Assembly: GCA_020850355.1 (NCBI GenBank)
Contig: JADZEX010000045.1
Coordinates: 1-64,000, forward strand
Direction: 5' to 3'
From: Fimbriimonadaceae bacterium
GTDB lineage: Bacteria > Armatimonadota > UBA10988
DNA: 64,000 nt
Shown: in pieces, positions 519-59,331 of the stretch
Numbering within the stretch: the first letter of the stretch is position 1
Layout: every line of letters starts with the position of its first letter
Notes under the pieces: generated by a model
What the model was told of the DNA's origin: nothing
The model's database searches: none
What the model saw: only the letters and a program-made list of their open reading frames with translations
Translations under genes and position numbers: made by a program

Positions 519-1901
519 ATGGCTGATGCGTCGCCGGATCTGGCGAGGGCCTGGCATCGGGCGGTCGCCGGGGTCCGGCCGGAACTCAGTGGACCAGCCT
601 TCGACCTCTGGATCGGTGACGTCTCGCCCCTTGGCTGCCGCAACGGCGTGGTGCAGGTGGCGGTACCCAATCCGCTGGTCCAGGAGCTGATGGTCCGCCG
701 CTGGGCCGGGTCGCTCCGGCGGGCGCTGTCCGAGGCGGTCGGCGAGCCCCTGGAGTTGGAGTTCCAGGTGGCGACCCCGGCACCAAACCAAACCGCTCCG
801 CCGCCGCGCGCGCCGGAGGCGTTGCTGGTCGACGAGGACACCCCGCGCGATGCCGACTTCGCCTCGCCGCCGCTGAACGGCCGGTTCACCTTCGAGAGCT
901 TCGTGATCGGCCCCTCGAACCGCTTTCCACAGGCCGCTGCCGAGGCGGTCGCCAAGAACCCCGGCGGCAACTACAACCCGCTCTTCCTGTACGGTGGGGT
1001 CGGTCTCGGCAAGACGCACCTGATGCAGGCGATCGGCCACAAGGTCGCCGAGCGGCATCCCGAGCTGAAGGTGGTCTACGTCTCCGGCGAGACTTTCCTG
1101 TACCACTTCGTGTCGGCGATTCGCGAGGACCGCACCGGGGAGTTCCGGCGCCGCTACCGGAGCGTCGATGTTTGGCTGGTGGACGACTTCCAGTTCATCG
1201 CCTCGCGCGAGCGCACCCGCACCGAAGCCGAGTTCTTCCACACCTTCAACGCCCTCTACGAGACCAACAAACAGATTGTCGTGACCAGCGATCGGCCGCC
1301 CAAGGAGTTGCTGATCGACGATCGGCTGCGCAGCCGGTTCGAGTGCGGCCTGGTCACCGACATCAAGCCACCGGACGTCGAGACGCGGCTGGCGATTCTG
1401 CAGAACCGCTGCAGCGAGGACCGCTTGCGGGTGCCCGATGAGGTGCTGATGTACGTCGCCCAGGTCGCCCGTGAGAGCATCCGGGTCTTGGAGGGCGCGC
1501 TGGTCAAGTTGGTGGCGTCGGCCTCGCTGATGCAGGCCGAGGTGACCCTCGACCTGGCGCGCGAGTGCCTCAAGGATTACAGCCTCGGCGACCGTCACCT
1601 GGACATCTCGACGGACTCGATCCAGCAGGCGGTGACGCGGCACTACGGCCTCGACGGCGGGGCGATCACCAGCAAGAGCCGCCGCGCCGAGGTGGCCCTG
1701 GCGCGGCAGGTGGCGATGTACCTCAGCCGCGAAATCGTGAAGTGCTCGTTCGCCGAGATCGGCGAGCAGTTCGGCCGCGATCACTCGACGGTGATCCACG
1801 CCTGCACCAAGATCGCCGATCTGCTGGCGGCCGGCGACCCGGATGTCTCCGCCGCGGTGAGTTCGATCACCGAGCGGATCCGGCTGGCCGAGACCTCCTG
1901 A
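519..1901 (+). CDS. dnaA: Chromosomal replication initiator protein DnaA
   Basis: DnaA binds DnaA boxes at oriC, oligomerises with ATP and opens the duplex to start replication. The protein is 460 aa, a normal length. An N-terminal domain is followed by a Pro-rich linker near residues 85-110. The AAA+ core has Walker A GGVGLGKTH near residue 160 and Walker B LVDDFQF near 218. The C-terminal helix-turn-helix carries the DnaA signature GRDHSTVIHA near 415. The ATG at 519 has a Shine-Dalgarno GGGAGAGG at 501-508. DnaA-box-like sequences lie before and after the gene, and dnaN follows after 314 bp, the usual origin arrangement. Confidence 0.98.
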   Translation: MADASPDLARAWHRAVAGVRPELSGPAFDLWIGDVSPLGCRNGVVQVAVPNPLVQELMVRRWAGSLRRALSEAVGEPLELEFQVATPAPNQTAPPPRAPEALLVDEDTPRDADFASPPLNGRFTFESFVIGPSNRFPQAAAEAVAKNPGGNYNPLFLYGGVGLGKTHLMQAIGHKVAERHPELKVVYVSGETFLYHFVSAIREDRTGEFRRRYRSVDVWLVDDFQFIASRERTRTEAEFFHTFNALYETNKQIVVTSDRPPKELLIDDRLRSRFECGLVTDIKPPDVETRLAILQNRCSEDRLRVPDEVLMYVAQVARESIRVLEGALVKLVASASLMQAEVTLDLARECLKDYSLGDRHLDISTDSIQQAVTRHYGLDGGAITSKSRRAEVALARQVAMYLSREIVKCSFAEIGEQFGRDHSTVIHACTKIADLLAAGDPDVSAAVSSITERIRLAETS

Positions 1902-2215: not shown

Positions 2216-3340
2216 ATGAAGTTCGTGACGCGGCGAGATGACCTGCAGCAGGCCATCAGTACCGTGCAGCGCGCCGTCTCGAGCCGCAGCACGTTGCCGA
2301 TTCTGAGCAATATCCTGCTGGAGGCGGAGAGCGAACGGCTGACGCTGAGCGCCACGGATCTGGAGATTGGGATCCGCGCCGTGTTGCCGGTCGAGTGCGA
2401 AGTCACCGGTGGTACCACGCTGCAGGCCAAACTGCTGGCCGAGGTTGTCGGTGCGCAGTCGAGCGGTCTGCCGCTGGTGATTGAGGCCGACGACCAGAAC
2501 CACCTCAGCTTCCGCTGCGGGCGCGGCCAGCTCGAAGTGCATGGGCTGCCGGCCGAAGAGTTTCCGGTGATCCCGGCGATCCAGGGTGAGGTCCAACTGA
2601 GCGTGCCGCAGGCGGCCCTGAAGCGGATGATCCAGGAGTGCATCATCGCGGTCGGCACCGACGAGACGCGAGCCCGCCTGACCGGCATGTTGCTGCTCGT
2701 CGAAAACAGTCGGATGCGGCTCGTCGCGACCGACACCCACCGGCTCGCCACCGCCAGTTGCGAGCTGGCCAGTGAGCGCGACATCAGCGTGATCATCCCG
2801 GCCCGCGCGTTGCGCGAGGTCGAGCGGCAGCTCAGCGACGACGAGCAGGCGACGGTGGCGGTGGACGTGACCGAGACGCAGGTGCAGTTCCGGTTCGAGA
2901 AGGTGACCATCCTGTCGCGCCTGATCGAGGGCGAGTTCCCGAACTATCGCAAGGCGATCCCGGCGACTCACGAGTGGAGCATCACCGGTCCGGTCAGCGT
3001 CTTGCGCGAGAGCGTGCGCCGCTGCGCGATTGTCTCGCGCGAGGACAACCGCAAGCTGAAGGTCCAGGTGGCCGCCTCGGGCGAGTTGCGGCTGGAGGCC
3101 CAAAGCACCCGCGTGGGCAGCGCGGAGGAGACCGTCGACGAGGTCACGGTGGTCGCGAACGACAGCTCGGCGCCGCCGCTGGAAGTCGCCTTCAACGCGG
3201 ACTACCTGCTGGATATTCTGAACCAGCTCGGCTCCGACGAGTTCAAGATGCAGCTCACGGCAGCCAACCAGCCGGCGGCGATTCGGCCGAACGCCGACCA
3301 GGACTATGTCTACGTGCTGATGCCGATGCAGTTGGGCTGA
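2216..3340 (+). CDS. dnaN: DNA polymerase III sliding clamp (beta subunit)
   Basis: This protein forms the ring that tethers DNA polymerase III to DNA. At 374 aa it matches the family length and the three-subdomain clamp fold. It begins MKFVTRRDDLQQAI, as clamps do, and ends with YVLMPMQLG, equivalent to the conserved C-terminal clamp edge (usually YVVMPMRL). The ATG follows GGAAGGGAAG. Its TGA overlaps the recF start (TGATG), so the two genes are likely co-transcribed. Confidence 0.97.
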   Translation: MKFVTRRDDLQQAISTVQRAVSSRSTLPILSNILLEAESERLTLSATDLEIGIRAVLPVECEVTGGTTLQAKLLAEVVGAQSSGLPLVIEADDQNHLSFRCGRGQLEVHGLPAEEFPVIPAIQGEVQLSVPQAALKRMIQECIIAVGTDETRARLTGMLLLVENSRMRLVATDTHRLATASCELASERDISVIIPARALREVERQLSDDEQATVAVDVTETQVQFRFEKVTILSRLIEGEFPNYRKAIPATHEWSITGPVSVLRESVRRCAIVSREDNRKLKVQVAASGELRLEAQSTRVGSAEETVDEVTVVANDSSAPPLEVAFNADYLLDILNQLGSDEFKMQLTAANQPAAIRPNADQDYVYVLMPMQLG

Positions 3341-4467
3341 TGTTCCTGGAGCGCCTCGAGCTGAACGACTTTCGGAGCTGGGAGCAGCTCCGGCTGCAGT
3401 TCGAGGCGCCCCTGACGATCCTGGCTGGCGCCAACGGCCAGGGCAAAACCAACATCCTCGAGGCGGTGCTGCTGCTGGCGCAGACCCGCTCACCGCGGAC
3501 CGGTCGCGACAGCGAACTGGTGCGGCGAGGCCAACGCGAGGCGGTGGTGCGCGGCGAGATCCGGCGGCAGCGCGGCGCGGCTGGCACGGTAGCGGTGGCC
3601 TTGCGCTCCGACGGCAGCAAAGTCGTCAAGATCGACGGGCAGCCGGTGCGGCGGTTGGTCGACGCGGTCGGTGCGCTGGCGGTGGTGTTTTTCGGTCCGG
3701 ATGAGCTCCGCCTGGTCAGTGGCGGCCCCGAGACGCGGCGCAACTACCTGAACGGCTGCCTCGGCCAACTCAGCCCACGCTACCTGGCGGCGCTGGCCGG
3801 TTACCGCGGGGTCCTGCGGCAGCGCAACCAACTGCTGCGGTCAGCGCGCGAGCGGCCGGTTGGTGGCGACCTCTTGGCGGCCTTCGACGACGGGCTGGCC
3901 GCCCAGGCGGCCATTCTGATGGCGGAGCGGTGCCGTGGCGTAGAGCAGCTGTCGCGACACGCGGCCACGGCGCACTACGAGCTGAGCGCCGGCGCCGAGA
4001 CCCTGCAGGTGACCTACCGGCCCCACGTATCGTTGCCGGCCGAGCCCGATCCTGAGCGCCTGCAGACCGCTGTGTTGGAGCAGTTGGCCCGCCGGCGCGA
4101 CGAGGAGCTGCGACGCGCGACGACCCTCGTCGGACCGCACCGCGACGACTTGGCCATCCGCCTGAACGAGGTGGAGGCCCGGACCTACGGCAGCCAAGGG
4201 CAGCAACGGACCGCGGCGCTGGCACTCAAGATGGCCGAACTGCGGGTGCTCAGCACAGTGCTAGACGAGCCGGCCGTGCTGCTGCTGGACGATGTCCTCT
4301 CCGAACTGGACGACACCCGGCGCCGTCAGGTGCTGGCATTGATCGACGAGACCGACCAGGTCGTGGTGACCTGTGCCCAGACGAGCGGCTTCGACGAGCG
4401 GTCGCTGGCCAGGTCGTCGCTGTGGGAGGTCGCCGGTGGCGCGGTGGTAGCCCGGAGTTCGCCATGA
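3340..4467 (+). CDS. recF: DNA replication and repair protein RecF
   Basis: RecF is an SMC-like ATPase that loads RecA at single-strand gaps. The 375-aa protein starts MFLERLELNDFRSW and has a Walker A motif, GANGQGKTN, near residue 32. The ABC-type signature region (YGSQGQQRTAALALK) and Walker B (LLLDDVLSELD) are in the C-terminal third. The ATG overlaps the dnaN stop codon. An in-frame start further upstream would lie inside dnaN and is rejected. The end overlaps the next gene by 4 nt. Confidence 0.96.
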   Translation: MFLERLELNDFRSWEQLRLQFEAPLTILAGANGQGKTNILEAVLLLAQTRSPRTGRDSELVRRGQREAVVRGEIRRQRGAAGTVAVALRSDGSKVVKIDGQPVRRLVDAVGALAVVFFGPDELRLVSGGPETRRNYLNGCLGQLSPRYLAALAGYRGVLRQRNQLLRSARERPVGGDLLAAFDDGLAAQAAILMAERCRGVEQLSRHAATAHYELSAGAETLQVTYRPHVSLPAEPDPERLQTAVLEQLARRRDEELRRATTLVGPHRDDLAIRLNEVEARTYGSQGQQRTAALALKMAELRVLSTVLDEPAVLLLDDVLSELDDTRRRQVLALIDETDQVVVTCAQTSGFDERSLARSSLWEVAGGAVVARSSP

Positions 4468-5057
4468 GCGACCGGTCGGGGCAGGCCGCGGAGAGCTTCC
4501 GGAGCGGCGGCGGGCCGACCGCGGCGGGGCGCCTTCTGAGAACCGCGATCGGTCGCCACGGCGGCACCGAGCTGGCTGCAAGACTCGAGCTGCAGGGCCA
4601 TTGGGCAGCGGTCGTAGGCGAGGCGATCGCCCGCCAGACCGAGCCGACGCGACTGCAGGACGGCGTCCTGACCATCGCCGTGGTGTCGCCGAGTTGGCAC
4701 GGCACGCTGCGGTCGATGGAGCGCAAGCTCCTGGCAACGATCCAGGACCGCTGTCCGCACCTGCGGGTGGCGACGCTGCGGTTCCAGCTCGGCCGTCCGG
4801 CCGCTGCGCCAGCCCGCGCCAGCGACCCCGACGAGCTGACCCCGGCGCCGGGCGAAGTGGCCGGCGTCGTGCTCAGCCCGGCGGTGCTGGTCGAGGTCGA
4901 CGCGCTGCTGCAGCCGCTGACCGACGAACGGCTGCGGGCGGTGGTGCGCGCCGCGCTGATCAGCCACCGCCAACTGCAGCAGTGGCGACTGCAACACGGC
5001 TGGCGCCGCGACCCGGCCGACGGCGAACTGCTGCCGCCGCCCAGCCTGCGTCGCTGA
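4464..5057 (+). CDS. DUF721 (DciA-like) protein
   Basis: A 197-aa protein with a DUF721-type core (WAAVVGEAIARQTEPTRL, then GVLTIAVVSPSWHGTLRS) in residues about 30-90. DUF721/DciA proteins are commonly encoded next to recF at origins, and DciA is a replicative-helicase loader in several phyla. The C-terminal half is Pro/Ala-rich and variable. The ATG at 4464 overlaps the recF stop (ATGA), so it belongs to the dnaN-recF operon. The family is clear; a loader function here is inferred. A parS cluster follows directly. Confidence 0.8.
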   Translation: MSDRSGQAAESFRSGGGPTAAGRLLRTAIGRHGGTELAARLELQGHWAAVVGEAIARQTEPTRLQDGVLTIAVVSPSWHGTLRSMERKLLATIQDRCPHLRVATLRFQLGRPAAAPARASDPDELTPAPGEVAGVVLSPAVLVEVDALLQPLTDERLRAVVRAALISHRQLQQWRLQHGWRRDPADGELLPPPSLRR

Positions 5058-5096: not shown

Positions 5097-5211
5097 TGTT
5101 TCACGTGAAACAGGCGCGTGCCCTGAGAGCGGGCTGTTTCACGTGAAACACCCGCCACGCCGCTGGTGGCGTCGCCCGGCGCAGGAGCGGCGGGCTGTTT
5201 CACGTGAAACA
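5097..5211. other. parS: parS cluster 1 (three ParB-binding sites)
   Basis: Three perfect copies of TGTTTCACGTGAAACA at 5097-5112, 5135-5150 and 5196-5211, in the convergent gap between the DUF721 gene and the peptidase-like gene. The third is extended to a 22-bp palindrome (GGC/GCC flanks). The 16-mer is the classical chromosomal parS sequence bound by ParB/Spo0J, which spreads from it and loads SMC. Confidence 0.93.
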
Positions 5212-7378: not shown

Positions 7379-8743
7379 TCAGTCCAAGAGCGGGTGATAG
7401 GGCAGCCGCCAGCGCGGCGGGGCAAACGCCAGGACGGCCAGCAGGACCGCCGCCAGCCAGCCAGCGAGCCGGCGTTCGGTGGCCAGCAAGAGGCCGCCTC
7501 TGACAATCGGCACCGTGGTGCTGAGCACCTGGTCGCGGGCGCCGCCGCGGTCCGCCGCGGCGACCAGGCTGCCGAAGGGATCGACCACCAGGCTGCCGCC
7601 ATCGCGGGCGCAGCGCACCACGACCATCCCGTTCTCGGCGGCCCGAAGCCGCGCCAACCACGCTAGCCTTTCGTGGTTCGGCGTCGAATCGGCCGGGATC
7701 GCCAAGACGGTGCAGCCCAGCGCGGCGGCCGCCCGAGCCGGGCCGGCCGACCACAGCGCGGCATCCTCCAACGCCCCGAGCCGCCCGAAGCTGGCTTGCG
7801 GCGGGCCCAGCAGCGCGCCGTGCGGCAATGAGCCGCTATCGACGTGGCGGCCGCTGGGTGCGGCGATCAGCATCTGCCGCCGCCCGACGGCGTGCAGGCC
7901 GGTGACCAGCCAACTGCCCAGCTCGCGGGCCACCACACCGACCGCGCCCGGCGTGCTGTCGGGCTGTGCCGCCACCGGCACCGCCGCGGCCGGCCAGACC
8001 ACGACGCGACTGCCGTCGGTGACGACCGCGGCGGTCAACGCCGCCAGCCGTGGCACGCGATCGTCGTGCGCCGCGACCGCTGCCACCTGCAGGTTCTCGC
8101 TCGAACCGCGGTCCAAGCGGTCCAAGCCGGCGGCGACCGTAGCAGCCAGCAGGGCCATCGCGCTGGCCACCACCCGCAGGGCGGCCCGCCGCTGCGGGTC
8201 CAGGATCAGCACCCCGACGGCCGTCCCGACGAAGGTCACCAGGAACGAGACCGCCGCGACGCCACCAATGTGCAGCGCCTGGGCGAGCAGCGCGGCATCC
8301 AGCCGGTAGGCGCCCCACGAGAAGCCCTCGCCCAGTGGGGTCAGTTGCCAGAGGCGTTCGAGCAGGACCCGCCCGGCCGCCAGTCCGGCGGCGACGACCA
8401 GCGCGTTGCCGCGGGCCGCCAGCCAACGACCGAGGGCCAGGAACGCCGCCAGGTCGAGCGCCAACGCCAGGCTCCAGGCCAACCGGGTGCTGCCAGGAGC
8501 CACCTGCCAGCCGCCGGTGATGGTCGCGCCCAGGCAGAGCAGCAGCCAGCAGCAGCCGGTCTGGCGCCGCGTCGCGCGCGTCGCCACCCCGGCGGCGACC
8601 ACCGGGACCAGCCAGATGCTGCGCCCCGCCGGGCCTTGCCACTGCGCCAGCGCCAGCGCCGCGCTGCCCAAGGTGGCCCAGGCGCAGGCTTGCTGCCAGG
8701 TCCACGGTGCGGTCGTTGCGTTGCTTGACTCAGCTTGCTTCAC
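7379..8743 (-). CDS. Apolipoprotein N-acyltransferase-like membrane protein, catalytic triad absent
   Basis: A 454-aa protein with about seven N-terminal hydrophobic segments, a C-terminal nitrilase-like domain and a last transmembrane helix, the architecture of Lnt. The segment LTPLGEGFSWGAYRL and the following helix match Lnt. So does ARLRAAENGMVVVRCARDGG near the C-terminus, the usual RAxE..R..NtG region. The Glu of the WPE motif is replaced (WPAAAVP). The CYE nucleophile region reads ALWSAG. The only lysine in the protein is residue 2, so the catalytic Lys is also missing. This is probably a non-enzymatic Lnt paralogue. It starts with GTG right at the predicted transcription start. Confidence 0.65.
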   Translation of the reverse strand: MKQAESSNATTAPWTWQQACAWATLGSAALALAQWQGPAGRSIWLVPVVAAGVATRATRRQTGCCWLLLCLGATITGGWQVAPGSTRLAWSLALALDLAAFLALGRWLAARGNALVVAAGLAAGRVLLERLWQLTPLGEGFSWGAYRLDAALLAQALHIGGVAAVSFLVTFVGTAVGVLILDPQRRAALRVVASAMALLAATVAAGLDRLDRGSSENLQVAAVAAHDDRVPRLAALTAAVVTDGSRVVVWPAAAVPVAAQPDSTPGAVGVVARELGSWLVTGLHAVGRRQMLIAAPSGRHVDSGSLPHGALLGPPQASFGRLGALEDAALWSAGPARAAAALGCTVLAIPADSTPNHERLAWLARLRAAENGMVVVRCARDGGSLVVDPFGSLVAAADRGGARDQVLSTTVPIVRGGLLLATERRLAGWLAAVLLAVLAFAPPRWRLPYHPLLD

Positions 8744-8758: not shown

Positions 8759-9199
8759 CCTCAGGCCGGTGGCGGCAGCCACGCCTGCCTCCCCAGACGA
8801 TCCGCGCGCCGCGCATGTCAACCGCGTCGCGCGAGTCGTTAGGGGCCTGTTTCACGTGAAACGGTTGGCCCGCGCCGTGCACCGCGTTGCGCGAGTCGCT
8901 GCGGGCTGTTTCACGTGAAACGGTTGGCCCGCGCCGTGCGCTGCGTCGAGCGAGTCGCTGGGGGCTGTTTCACGTGAAACAGGCGGCCCGCGCCGTGCAC
9001 CGCGTTGCGCGAGTTGCCGGGTAGCTGTTTCACGTGAAACGGTTGGCCCGCGCCGTGCGCTGCGTCGAGCGAGTCGCTGGGGGCTGTTTCACGTGAAACA
9101 GGCGGTCGGGGCCGTGCGCCGCGGCGGGCGAGGCGTCGAGTCGCTGTTTCACGTGAAACCGGTGTGCCACAGCCGGCCTGGCCACCTGCGCGCGGCCGG

Positions 9200-9229
9200 T
9201 TGACGCCGGCCGTCGGAACCGCGTATCCT
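9200..9229 (+). promoter_or_regulatory. Sigma70-type promoter giving a leaderless transcript
   Basis: TTGACG (9200-9205) and TATCCT (9224-9229) are separated by 18 bp. The predicted +1 is at about 9236, which is the A of the ATG of the next gene. It lies 40 bp after the last parS of the six-site array. Confidence 0.55.
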
Positions 9230-9235
9230 CGCCAC

Positions 9236-10264
9236 ATGGCAGGCTGGACTCGACGCACAGCGCTGTTGGCTCTGCTGGCCGCCGCCGCTCGGGCGGCGCG
9301 GGGGCAGGAGACTGGCGGCACGGCCGAGGTCACCGCCAGACGACAACTTGACGAGGCGCTGCGGGCGGTCGAGCAGCAGACCGGCGTGCGGATCGCGAAT
9401 CAGGCGGCGGTGGCCGAGCGTCCGCTCAGCGGCACCTGGTTCGGCGACTGGCCGGGCCTCCTGGCACGACTCGGCGAGGCGGCCGGCGTTTGGCTCTGTC
9501 GCACCGCGCCGTGGGACTACCTGGCCTTGCCGCAACCGCCGCCGGGTACGGTCTCCGGGGCGGGGCTGCGCTGGCGCTGCGGGCGAGCCCGGGTGATTGG
9601 TCGCGGCGAGCCGGCCGACCCGCGGCGGGTGGTGCTCGAACTGTGGGCCGAGGCCGACCGCGACGAGGAGCTGGCCGCGCTGGTCGGCCTTGACCTCGCC
9701 ACGGTCCGGCTCCGCGAGCTGCCGCCGCCGGCGGGGCTGCCGCTGCCAGAGCATTGCCTGCTGGCCGCGGCGGCCAAACGGCGGCACGGGTTTGTGGGCC
9801 TCCTGGCGTTCGCCGCCCCCACGGACGGCGCGCGGACCGTCACACTGGAATGGACCGCAGTGCGGTATGAGTCCACCGATACGGTGACCACTGAAACGAC
9901 CGTCGCCGACCCGGTCACTGTGGAGCGGGATGGTATTCGGGTGAGCTGGCAGTCCTTTCATACCTGGGGCGGGCGGTGGCGAGCGCGGGCCGCGCTACGC
10001 TATCCGCCGAGTCTGCAGCAGTCCGAACCCTGGCTGACGGCCCTGGCCAGCGGGCCGGCGGGCCGATGGCGGCCGCTCAGCATCACGCCAGGTCCGGCCA
10101 CGGCGACCGACGACGACCGCCTGGAGTGTACCTGCGAGGCGGACTTCGCCAGCGCCGTGGCGCCGCAGCGGGTAATGCTGCAGGTGACCCGCGGGCGCGG
10201 ACCGCTGCAGCGGGCCACCGTGCAGTGGCCAGGGCTGACCCTGCCCGCTGGAGGTGTGCCGTGA
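9236..10264 (+). CDS. Secreted protein of unknown function
   Basis: 342 aa with a signal peptide containing twin arginines (TRRTALLALLAAAARAARG). Residues about 35-95 (LDEALRAVEQQTGVRI ... LLARLGEAAGVW) resemble the STN/secretin short N-terminal domain pattern, but I cannot confirm this. The rest is beta-rich with no motif I recognise. The ATG at 9236 is chosen because it starts the signal peptide and coincides with the predicted +1. The TGA overlaps the GTG of the CHASE2 kinase by 4 nt (GTGA), so the two are one operon and may act in one envelope sensing pathway. Confidence 0.55.
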   Translation: MAGWTRRTALLALLAAAARAARGQETGGTAEVTARRQLDEALRAVEQQTGVRIANQAAVAERPLSGTWFGDWPGLLARLGEAAGVWLCRTAPWDYLALPQPPPGTVSGAGLRWRCGRARVIGRGEPADPRRVVLELWAEADRDEELAALVGLDLATVRLRELPPPAGLPLPEHCLLAAAAKRRHGFVGLLAFAAPTDGARTVTLEWTAVRYESTDTVTTETTVADPVTVERDGIRVSWQSFHTWGGRWRARAALRYPPSLQQSEPWLTALASGPAGRWRPLSITPGPATATDDDRLECTCEADFASAVAPQRVMLQVTRGRGPLQRATVQWPGLTLPAGGVP

Positions 10265-13791: not shown

Positions 13792-13841
13792 TGTTTCACG
13801 TGAAACAGCCGCCGGCCGCGGGGCCCGTTTCACGTGAAACA
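13792..13841. other. parS: parS cluster 3 (two sites)
   Basis: Sites at 13792-13807 (perfect) and 13826-13841 (first base C, core perfect), only 34 bp apart, the tightest pair in the window. They lie between two co-directional minus-strand genes. A CCGCCGGCCGCGGGGCCC motif precedes each site, so the pair arose by local duplication. Confidence 0.9.
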
Positions 13842-24670: not shown

Positions 24671-24686
24671 TGTTTCACGTGAAACA
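24671..24686. other. parS: parS site 4 (single)
   Basis: A single perfect TGTTTCACGTGAAACA between topA and the export operon, both on the plus strand. It lies about 140 bp before the GTG of the adaptor gene. Confidence 0.92.
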
Positions 24687-28891: not shown

Positions 28892-29074
28892 TGTTTCACG
28901 TGAAACAGCACCCCAGCGGACCGGTCGGGATCCCAACCGGCCAGCGCTGTTTCACGTGAAACAGCACCCCCTGACGCGCGTCGGGATCCGTCCGGCCGCG
29001 GCTGTTGCACGTGAAACAGCACCCCAGCGGACCGGTCGGGATTCCAACCGGCCAGCGCTGTTTCACGTGAAACA
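28892..29074. repeat. parS: parS cluster 5: four-site alternating array
   Basis: Sites at 28892-28907, 28948-28963, 29003-29018 and 29059-29074, spaced 56, 55 and 56 bp, in a convergent gap. Site 3 reads TGTTGCACGTGAAACA, one change that the Bacillus consensus TGTTNCACGTGAAACA tolerates. The spacers after sites 1 and 3 are the same 40-bp sequence with one difference; the spacer after site 2 differs, giving an A-B-A pattern. Site 4 sits in a perfect 32-bp palindrome (29051-29082). Confidence 0.92.
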
Positions 29075-32342: not shown

Positions 32343-32456
32343 TGTTTCACGTGAAACAACGCCCCGCCGCGCCGCCGCCGGTGGGCCGGGCGACGGGCGA
32401 GTCGGTGGCCAGCGGCGTGGTGGCGCCGCCCGGCGGCCGCTGTTTCACGTGAAACA
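32343..32456. other. parS: parS cluster 6 (two sites)
   Basis: Perfect sites at 32343-32358 and 32441-32456, 98 bp apart, in the 310-bp divergent gap between cysH and a cyclophilin lipoprotein gene. The rest of this gap holds the cys operator and promoter on one side and the cyclophilin promoter on the other. Confidence 0.92.
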
Positions 32457-37878: not shown

Positions 37879-38126
37879 TGTTTCACGTGAAACAGCGCCC
37901 GGACCCGGCCCCCAAGCCGGCCTCCGAGCGCGCCGTTGAGCAGCCGAGAACAGCGCGGTCCGCGGGGGATCGGTCGTTGTGCCGCTGGGGACACGCCAAC
38001 ACCGCTCGTCAGGCTGGCTACGGGCGGGCGTCGGCGACCGGGCAGGCCGTCGCCGACATGGTCGGCCGGCCCGCCCCCAAGCGTCCCGCTACCTGCGGCT
38101 TGCGGCGCGGTGTTTCACGTGAAACA
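37879..38126. other. parS: parS cluster 7 (two sites)
   Basis: Perfect sites at 37879-37894 and 38111-38126, 232 bp apart, in the 320-bp convergent gap between the mutarotase-like gene and tatC. I see no gene, promoter or other element in the DNA between them. Confidence 0.92.
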
Positions 38127-42311: not shown

Positions 42312-42463
42312 TGTTTCACGTGAAACAGGGCGCGCGGCGCACAGGGCCGGCCGGCGAGTCCCAGCCGGCCACGGCTGTTTCACGTGAAACAGCCGCGGTG
42401 CCGGGCAGGCACTGTCCAGATGGCAACGCGGTGGCCGAAGCCGACACTGTTTCACGTGAAACG
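42312..42463. other. parS: parS cluster 8 (three sites)
   Basis: Sites at 42312-42327, 42376-42391 (inside a 24-bp palindrome) and 42448-42463 (last base G), spaced 64 and 72 bp, filling a 167-bp convergent gap. The last one ends 5 bp before the stop codon of the GNAT gene. Confidence 0.92.
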
Positions 42464-50193: not shown

Positions 50194-50275
50194 TGTTTCA
50201 CGTGAAACACCGCTCCGCGGTGGCCTGGGTGGACCGGCCGGGCGTCGGCCGCGGCGATCCGTTTCACGTGAAACA
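50194..50275. other. parS: parS cluster 9 (two sites)
   Basis: Sites at 50194-50209 (perfect) and 50260-50275 (first base C, core perfect), 66 bp apart, in the 105-bp convergent gap after the transglutaminase relic. The second ends 3 bp before the stop codon of the ligase gene. Confidence 0.92.
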
Positions 50276-50278
50276 GAC

Positions 50279-52405
50279 CTATCGCGCGCAGCGCAGCTCG
50301 CGCTGCGCGCGGTCGATCCCGCTGACCAGCCCGTTGACTTCCTGCCGCTCCGATTCGCGCAGTCCCTGCTGCTCCAGCAACACCTGTCGCTCGGCAGCGG
50401 GCAGGCTGGCGACCAGGCCTTCCTGTTCGCGCCAGGTGGCGAGGTACTTCTCGAAGTCCGGCAGCGCGCGGGCATAGGCGTCGCAGGCCGGACCGGCCTG
50501 GCCCGCCTGGCGGTACAACTCGGCCAATCTGAAGAGCCCGTAGCCGTGGGTCGGCTCGAAGGTGTAGCCGGTCAGCGGGGCGGCACTGCTGAGGGCCGGC
50601 GAAGTAGCCAGGGCGTCGAGCCGCTGGTAGACCGCGATCGCCTCGGCGCGGCGACCGGCTTGCGTCAGCAACTCGCCCAACTGCAGGTAGCCTTGCAGGT
50701 GCAACGGGCTGAGCGTCGCCGACCGCAGCGACCAGTCGAGGGCCGCCGGCAAGTCGCCCCGGGCGGCTTCGAAGGCGGCGCGCCGGTAGGCGATGCGGGC
50801 GCTGGTCGGACGGCACGCGAAGGCCCGGTTGTAGGCGCGGGCCGCCAGCACCGGGTCACCGCTGGCCGCCGCCAACCCGGCCAGGTCCTCCCAGGCCGGA
50901 CCGCTCGCCGGCAGCCCGGCGACGGCCGCCTGCAGCTCCTGCCGCGCGGTCAGCAGCGCGCCGCTGGCGATGGCTCGTTGCGCCGCGGCCCGGTGGGCCT
51001 CCGCCCGCGCGGCGCTGCCGGTCACGAGCAGGACCAGCAGGCCCGCCGCGGCGACCAGCCAGCGGCCCGCCGGGGCGTCTGTTTCACGTGAAACAGCCGG
51101 CGCCGCCAGCGCGGCCAGCGCCGTCAAGCTGAGTGGCACGGCCGTCACCAGCCAGCCGCAGTCCAGGGCGTGGTGCAGCGCGAAGCCGAGCGTGGCGGCC
51201 ACCAGGCCGTAGCCGGCTGACCGTCGCCGCGGGTCGCCGGCCAGCGCCGCCCGCCAGCCCAGCCGCAGCCACCCGGCGAGCAGCAGCAGGTGGGCCAGCA
51301 GGGCCCCCCAGCCTGCTTCAGCAGCGATCTGCAGGTAGCCGTTGTGGGCGTGCTGCGTGTACGCCCCCCGGGCGAAACCGCCGTAGGCTTGGACCCAGCC
51401 GCCGGCACCGACGCCGAGCCAGGGGGCCTGGGCGATCAGGTCGACCGTGCCCTGCCAGGTCAGCAGCCGGAAGTTGTTGGACCGCGCCTGTTGCAGGCCG
51501 CCGAGCAGGCGCGAGCCGAACGGCGAAATGAGCAGGACCAGCAGCCCGAGCAGCGTCAGCGTGACCAGCGCGGCGGCCAGTCGCGGGCGGCCCGCGCGGG
51601 CCAAGGTTAGCCCGCAGGCCAGCAGCCCGGCGACCAGACCCAGTTGAGCGCCGCGCGAGCCCGTCAGGAGCAGCGCCAGGAAGGCCAGGCCGACGACGCC
51701 GGCCACCAGCCAGCGCAGCTTGCGGCGCGGCTGTTGCACAGCCTGCCGCCGCAGCCACTCCGCGGCGACCGTCTCCCCACCGGCCCGGACCCAGGCCGCG
51801 GCCGCGGCCGGCAGCACCACCAGCAGGTAGCAGCCCGCCTGGTTCGGGTTGGCGAAGCCGGCGAAGACCCGCCAGTTGAGCTCCCCGCTGCGCAGGTGTG
51901 GCAAAAACTCCTGCAGGGCCCGCAGCCCGACCACCGCCGCGCCGGCACCGAGACCGCTGCAGACGGCGGCCGGCCGCGCCCGCGCCGTCGCCAGGGCCGC
52001 CAGGCAGCAGAGCCCGAGGCGGGCCAGCTCGACGAGTCCGGCGGCGAAGTCGGCCGGGTAATGCGTCGCCAGGGGCGGCCCACGGAGCACGGCGGGCAGC
52101 GACGCACCGGCTCGCGGGACGGCGATCGACAGGGCGGCGAGCAGCAGGAACGCCAGCCAGGCCCCGAGCGGCACTCGCCGGAGTGCCGGCCGGCTGAGCG
52201 CGGCGAGCAGCAGCAGCGCCGCCAGCCCGGCGCGGCCCCAGAGGACGGCCGCGTTGGGCAACTCGTCGAGGACCAGGCCGGTGCCGAAGACTGGGGCCAG
52301 GGCCACCGCGACTGCGACCAGGTAGTCGGCGAGGTGCCACCGGGCCAGCGGCGCGGGCGCTGCCAGCGGAGGGGGCGACTCGGCCGGCGGGCGGCGGCGG
52401 GGCAT
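50279..52405 (-). CDS. O-antigen-ligase-like membrane protein with TPR tail
   Basis: 708 aa. About ten or more transmembrane helices occupy residues 25-430. The Wzy/WaaL-type signature region includes FAGFANPNQAGCYLLVVLP, LLTGSRGAQLGLVAGL and GVGAGGWVQAYGG...HAHNGYLQIAAEAGW, with a conserved periplasmic His. After a last helix near 455 come TPR-like repeats (about 470-680). It likely transfers or polymerises a surface glycan. The coding sequence contains a parS site at 51080-51095 (VSRET in a loop between helices). The ATG lies 2 nt after the recJ stop. Confidence 0.8.
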   Translation of the reverse strand: MPRRRPPAESPPPLAAPAPLARWHLADYLVAVAVALAPVFGTGLVLDELPNAAVLWGRAGLAALLLLAALSRPALRRVPLGAWLAFLLLAALSIAVPRAGASLPAVLRGPPLATHYPADFAAGLVELARLGLCCLAALATARARPAAVCSGLGAGAAVVGLRALQEFLPHLRSGELNWRVFAGFANPNQAGCYLLVVLPAAAAAWVRAGGETVAAEWLRRQAVQQPRRKLRWLVAGVVGLAFLALLLTGSRGAQLGLVAGLLACGLTLARAGRPRLAAALVTLTLLGLLVLLISPFGSRLLGGLQQARSNNFRLLTWQGTVDLIAQAPWLGVGAGGWVQAYGGFARGAYTQHAHNGYLQIAAEAGWGALLAHLLLLAGWLRLGWRAALAGDPRRRSAGYGLVAATLGFALHHALDCGWLVTAVPLSLTALAALAAPAVSRETDAPAGRWLVAAAGLLVLLVTGSAARAEAHRAAAQRAIASGALLTARQELQAAVAGLPASGPAWEDLAGLAAASGDPVLAARAYNRAFACRPTSARIAYRRAAFEAARGDLPAALDWSLRSATLSPLHLQGYLQLGELLTQAGRRAEAIAVYQRLDALATSPALSSAAPLTGYTFEPTHGYGLFRLAELYRQAGQAGPACDAYARALPDFEKYLATWREQEGLVASLPAAERQVLLEQQGLRESERQEVNGLVSGIDRAQRELRCAR
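51080..51095. other. parS: parS site 10 inside a coding sequence
   Basis: A perfect TGTTTCACGTGAAACA within the O-antigen-ligase-like gene, encoding V-S-R-E-T at about residues 437-442. That is between two membrane helices, in a flexible Ala/Pro-rich loop. It is the only one of the 32 sites inside a gene. Confidence 0.93.
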
Positions 52406-54690: not shown

Positions 54691-54785
54691 TGTTTCACGT
54701 GAAACAGCCGCCGCCTGGGCAGGCCGGCAGCGACCCACGCCGGGCGCCCCGGCCCGGGCAGCCGCGTGCTGTTTCACGTGAAACC
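54691..54785. other. parS: parS cluster 11 (two sites)
   Basis: Sites at 54691-54706 (perfect, within a perfect 32-bp palindrome 54683-54714) and 54770-54785 (last base C), 79 bp apart, in the divergent gap between the LapA-like gene and hom. Confidence 0.92.
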
Positions 54786-59151: not shown

Positions 59152-59331
59152 TGTTTCACGTGAAACACCAGCGGGCCAGGCGGCGCGGCACCCGCTGGAC
59201 CAGATGGCTGTTTCACGTGAAACAGCGGCTGCCGCCCGGCTTGTTGGCGGGCCTCACCTGTTTCACGTGAAACACCAGCGGGCCAGGCGGCGCGGCACCG
59301 GCCGGAACAGGCGCCTGTTTCACGTGAAACA
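59152..59331. repeat. parS: parS cluster 12: four-site array
   Basis: Four perfect sites at 59152-59167, 59209-59224, 59259-59274 and 59316-59331 (spacing 57, 50, 57 bp) in a convergent gap. The spacers after sites 1 and 3 begin with the same 25 bp or so (CCAGCGGGCCAGGCGGCGCG...), so a unit of about 107 bp was duplicated. Site 4 lies in a perfect 26-bp palindrome (59311-59336) touching the stop codon of the next gene. Confidence 0.93.

Follow-up and report, generated by a model that had tools for sequence, protein, structure and literature searches.

Six copies of the partition site parS lie in tandem between two divergent genes of the window (the whole 64,000 nt stretch of DNA analysed here), raising the question of how such an array arose and whether it belongs to a plasmid or to a chromosome. 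Each copy is an exact 14-mer, GTTTCACGTGAAAC, supporting the original identification of the sites as parS, here of the canonical chromosomal type, and the spacing from start to start is 59, 59, 60, 59 and 60 bp. The locus comprises the following features:

8849-9159, unstranded: six-site parS array (16-mers at 8848-9160), with sites starting at 8849, 8908, 8967, 9027, 9086 and 9146
8905-8986, plus strand: 82 bp exact repeat unit, the duplicated two-site unit, with its second copy at 9024-9105 (lag 119 bp)
7379-8743, minus strand: left neighbour of the array, carbon-nitrogen hydrolase domain gene
9236-10264, plus strand: right neighbour of the array, gene without a Pfam match; a promoter-like site ends 6 nt upstream of its ATG

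The exact starts and TRF analysis (period 59 with 5.7 copies; period 119 with 2.8 copies, which scores better) agree with the original prediction of a 59-60 bp period within a 119 bp higher-order repeat. The longest exact repeat within the array is 82 bp at a lag of 119, spacers 2 and 4 agree at each of their 45 bases, and sites 3 and 5 have the right flank AGGCGG in common. Taken together, these make duplication of a two-site unit the natural reading, and the predicted route of expansion is supported. When the array units were aligned, 14/14 columns of the palindrome core were invariant vs 27/49 of the other columns (Fisher p = 0.001); the same test gave p = 2e-6 for the array at 59153, and p = 0.09, which is not significant, for the array at 28893 with its variant site included. 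The combination of invariant palindrome columns and variable remaining columns indicates that the palindrome is selected while the spacers drift. A helical-phasing code for the 59-60 bp spacing was considered and rejected, as vector strength at 10.5 bp was 0.16 vs a random expectation of 0.10, which is not significant.

The array had also been placed between two divergent promoters, both apparently leaderless. The flanking genes are divergent, and on the plus side a promoter-like TTGACG-18-TATCCT ends at 9229, with the ATG of the right gene at 9236. A leaderless transcript is plausible for this gene only; a consensus promoter was sought on the minus side of the array gap and none was found.

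The replicon to which the array belongs is indicated by the genes at the start of the window:

648-1901, plus strand: dnaA (start approximate), which puts the window at the chromosome origin
2216-5057, plus strand: dnaN, recF and dciA, origin-proximal gene block

Plasmids typically carry regular tandem partition sites, and the original prediction had likened the array to a plasmid centromere, in which case the window would derive from a plasmid or chromid with an iteron-like partition site. This is scarcely credible, given that the contig carrying the array opens with dnaA-dnaN-recF-dciA, that parAB lie behind rpmH on another contig (C96), that the genome's only ParB is chromosomal in type, and that a search of the array against plasmid and phage records returned no match. 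Contig C46, whose first 64 kb are the window, begins with dnaA, dnaN, recF and dciA and carries 40 sites in 92 kb, and C96 begins with rpmH, has parA-parB at ~4-6 kb and carries 55 sites in 178 kb. The order rpmH-dnaA is the usual one at chromosomal origins, and judged from it C46 and C96 are the two sides of the chromosomal origin. A third contig, C22, has 22 sites in 206 kb, their density declining from one end to the other; it presumably adjoins the origin region, judging from site density and this falling gradient only. Ordering by end overlap linked none of the contigs. The right end of C46 shares its array with C59, and its left end, positions 1-125 of the window, is a repeat that is also found at the ends of C54, C60 and C77. 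This repeat interrupts the assembly a short way upstream of dnaA, on the side towards rpmH.

Exact matches to the palindrome forms (GTTTCACGTGAAAC / TGTTTCACGTGAAACA; extended consensus CTGTTTCACGTGAAACAG) number 156 in the 6.67 Mb draft assembly (117 contigs, 95% complete), and the reversed control gave 0. When up to 2 mismatches were allowed, there were 168 16-mers in this genome vs 1-2 in same-family and same-order genomes. C46, C96 and C22 (476 kb, 7.1% of the assembly) together carry 117/156 exact sites; the restriction of sites to the origin is not absolute, with 39 lying off these three contigs and a few lying inside genes. The 2.25 Mb examined in detail contain 134/156 sites, and 19 of the other 22 were also located, the last 3 being in stretches outside. 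These 134 exact sites (vs 12 with 1-2 mismatches) form 60 clusters of 1-6 sites, 43 of them with at least 2, and the array at 8849-9159 is both the largest and the only one with six.

The window itself has 31 exact sites in twelve clusters, and parS-like 16-mers with up to 3 mismatches number 32 vs a shuffle mean of 0.07. Eleven clusters beyond the array, which the original prediction did not mention, are as follows:

5098-5210, unstranded: parS cluster, 3 sites, convergent gap after dciA
13793-13840, unstranded: parS cluster, 2 sites
24672-24685, unstranded: single parS site
28893-29073, unstranded: parS array, 3 exact sites plus the variant GTTGCACGTGAAAC at 29004, ~56 bp period, convergent gap
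32344-32455, unstranded: parS cluster, 2 sites, divergent gap
37880-38125, unstranded: parS cluster, 2 sites, convergent gap
42313-42462, unstranded: parS cluster, 3 sites, convergent gap
50195-50274, unstranded: parS cluster, 2 sites, convergent gap
51081-51094, unstranded: single parS site within a called gene
54692-54784, unstranded: parS cluster, 2 sites, divergent gap
59153-59330, unstranded: parS array, 4 sites, 107 bp two-site unit, convergent gap

Two of these further clusters thus show two-site or 56 bp periodicity. The copy number could in principle have been inflated or collapsed by short-read metagenome assembly: the draft is in 117 contigs, the right end of C46 shares array sequence with the end of C59 so that both contigs end within the same array sequence, and the 82 bp exact repeat could be mis-resolved by short k-mers. 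The clusters differ from one another in gene context and spacers, and the total therefore cannot come from duplicated contigs, making an artefact very unlikely as the source of the pattern; the copy number of six in this array is that of the assembly as it stands and may be inexact.

The genome encodes a single ParB, with ParB_N, HTH_ParB and ParB_C domains, whose close alignment with solved chains of ParB and Spo0J covers the GERRWRA and ENLQR motifs. The parA gene adjoins parB behind rpmH on C96, and one SMC scores above its curated cut-off. A second ParB or Noc as reader of the sites was rejected, as only one ParB_N protein is present in the genome. Multi-site clusters recur about every 4-8 kb on C46 and C96, with a median cluster distance of 4.5 kb and 6.8 kb, respectively, and every part of C46 lies within 10 kb of a parS site. 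In model species, ParB spreads in vivo over 10-15 kb (PMC9242446), further than the clusters lie apart, and the ParB zones would therefore be expected to merge over the origin region.

The sites are not placed at random with respect to genes, which were called with a home-made codon-usage model that agrees with Pfam for most genes checked. The great majority (126/134) lie outside called genes, where the non-coding share of these contigs is 7-9%. Among origin-proximal gaps of 100 bp or more, parS is present in 15/16 convergent, 18/38 co-directional and 8/32 divergent gaps; in the distal contigs (1.53 Mb), it is present in 0/30 convergent gaps of this size. The six-site array departs from this convergent-gap preference, as the gap that holds it is divergent. 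As convergent gaps contain no promoters, this preference fits sites being tolerated where ParB least disturbs transcription, as we infer. The contrast between 15/16 and 0/30 suggests a placement rule, for which cultured Eggerthellaceae and Streptomyces would be a test case. So marked a bias towards convergent gaps would also suit regulatory or terminator elements, or uptake sequences. Terminators and uptake sequences would be genome-wide, at odds with the empty distal convergent gaps; in addition, no terminator-like site was found in the array region, and the sequence is exactly the universal parS in a genome that encodes its cognate ParB, so that this alternative is highly improbable.

A selfish or neutral origin was also weighed, namely that a satellite-like or mobile repeat carrying parS has spread here without being required for segregation. 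The tandem units with drifting spacers are compatible with this, as are two cluster pairs that share flanking sequence (the ends of C46 and C59; 76730 and 89388 on C46) and the dispersed multi-parS segment of a second genome in the phylum (at least 5 loci, 87-99% identity; see below). It is nevertheless unlikely, because all-against-all BLAST with parS masked found no convincing homology for most of the 60 clusters, the palindrome is far stricter than the spacers, and the sites are concentrated at the origin and in convergent gaps. A mobile or MITE-like element spreading all clusters was rejected on the same grounds of few homologous flanks with parS masked. Beyond the window, a 110 bp segment occurs on C46 at 76637-76746 and 89295-89404 with 94% identity, the two copies being 12.7 kb apart and both ending just after parS.

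Exact parS counts in same-family genomes are 0, 1 and 0. Loss of regular spacing in close relatives had been named as grounds for rejecting the original prediction, and it applies in so far as the sites are missing altogether from the same-family genomes, pointing to a lineage-specific expansion rather than to an artefact. The nearest usable relative (G001), whose ParB is 54% identical, carries no more than two variant sites, both flanking parAB (TGTTGCACGTGAAACA and TGTTGCACGTGCAACA), and a search of the stretch examined at its dciA locus found no parS-like site. In this genome the variant core GTTGCACGTGAAAC is present at window position 29004 and at position 8310 of C60, and it also lies near parB in the same-family genomes G001 (C167:5989) and G003 (C162:1095); it is possibly a relic of an ancestral family parS. 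A census of 291 genomes of the phylum, Armatimonadota, gave 156 sites in this genome, then 89, then 13 and below, and no paper linking parS to Armatimonadota was found in the literature searched. The genome with 89 sites (G132) is Chthonomonadaceae bacterium SKYG99, a separate expansion in the same phylum which likewise has 58 bp regular arrays, but differs in that its arrays share a dispersed cassette, which the clusters of this genome do not in general. In SKYG99 a multi-parS segment of 137-253 bp is found at no fewer than 5 loci with 87-99% identity and with homology edges at or near parS, the apparent dispersed parS cassettes being:

4124-4445 of L035: parS cassette locus
6953-7164 of L093: parS cassette locus
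5337-5528 of L109: parS cassette locus
7284-7537 of L110: parS cassette locus
692-898 of L118: parS cassette locus

Regular parS arrays had been considered unknown in bacterial chromosomes, a view that comparison with other bacteria does not support. Three parS spaced 42-72 bp apart were found in at least 117 stretches from many phyla, and comparable arrays include 12 sites at 41-42 bp (L055), 9 sites at 57-58 bp upstream of parAB (L047) and an array at 58 bp (L110); most are on MAG contigs, for which a chromosomal location is likely, not proven one by one. Regular local parS arrays are a recurrent pattern, of which the array studied here is a real new instance. Whole-genome counts in array-bearing genomes reached 121 in Streptomyces sp. 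NRRL F-4489 (G086), 82 in Candidatus Gordonibacter avicola and 49 in Enteroscipio rubneri. In the family of the last, the Eggerthellaceae, 9/101 genomes have 106-135 exact parS; these are Actinomycetota, and several members of the family share the expansion, unlike the present one, which is confined to a single genome of its family. A dedicated paper on Eggerthellaceae with more than 100 parS was sought and none was found in the literature searched. Published Streptomyces counts have a mean of 22.8 and a range of 11-65, the 65 sites of S. albidoflavus J1074 being called remarkable (PMC8743542); the counting used here gave 62 exact parS in an S. albidoflavus strain, supporting the method. The Streptomyces origin island resembles the present genome in that its origin-proximal sites number in the dozens and partly form short arrays, whereas this genome has 156 sites, belongs to another phylum and carries them on both sides of the origin. 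The count of 156 is the highest among the genomes counted here, with no claim to a record among bacteria. It far exceeds 65, the highest number found in the literature consulted, as do the counts for the nine Eggerthellaceae genomes and for Streptomyces sp. NRRL F-4489.

It is quite probable, judging from the arrangement of sites and genes, that the array serves as one of the ParB-loading clusters in a chromosomal ParABS centromere of greatly increased size, which has grown by local duplication in a tolerant zone. Canonical ParABS systems (B. subtilis 8, P. aeruginosa 10 and C. crescentus 5-7 sites) have the same palindrome, ParB type and origin proximity, while this genome has more than 10 times as many sites, arranged in tandem arrays and over hundreds of kb; parS sites in most bacteria typically spread over 5-40 kb (PMC8357415). 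Taken over the whole genome, this is a known system in an extreme form. Under this expanded-centromere model, the lone ParB would bind each palindrome, close as a CTP clamp and slide off, and the merged ParB zones would form one long ParB-coated origin domain of hundreds of kilobases, which ParA would move and at which SMC would probably be loaded. The ancestor may have had one or two sites next to parAB, with clusters then multiplying through short tandem duplication (here of the 119 bp two-site unit) and occasional dispersal. The low homology between clusters once parS is masked, two pairs aside, implies that dispersal was old, rare or short. New sites would be tolerated only within an origin-proximal permissive zone, selection would maintain the palindromes while spacers drift, and the 59-60 bp period would be a by-product of the duplicated unit.

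Transposon experiments showed that extra parS are tolerated in Caulobacter only within ~500 kb, and in P. aeruginosa only within ~650 kb, around the native locus or origin (PMC5815017, PMC5098823), and in the present genome such a permissive zone seems to have filled up naturally. SMC-loading sites that lie far apart promote collisions in B. subtilis (PMC8357415), work which predicts the same for numerous scattered sites, and for this reason the SMC part of the model may not carry over. A bolder proposal, which we advance tentatively and regard as possible rather than probable, is that of a regional centromere, in which ~0.4-0.5 Mb around the origin, tiled with parS arrays, would form a single domain that is coated with ParB throughout and loads SMC at multiple points, working differently from the point-like centromeres studied so far; Armatimonadota (twice), Eggerthellaceae and Streptomyces may have arrived at this state independently. 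Alternatively, the many sites may be an excess that is tolerated and has been selected repeatedly. The causes of variation in parS number and of parS clustering have been named as open questions (PMC7333895), and a genome with 156 sites beside family relatives with 0-1, together with several lineages above 100, offers a natural contrast for the questions of parS number and SMC collision.

CRISPR-like features were also seen. CRISPR-like repeats GTCGACAAGGCAGCAGCGCCTACTCAGGCGTGGAAAC are present at the right end of C22 (~206200-206376), and on C46 at ~77-86 kb, beyond the window, genes resemble type III CRISPR/RAMP genes by eye.
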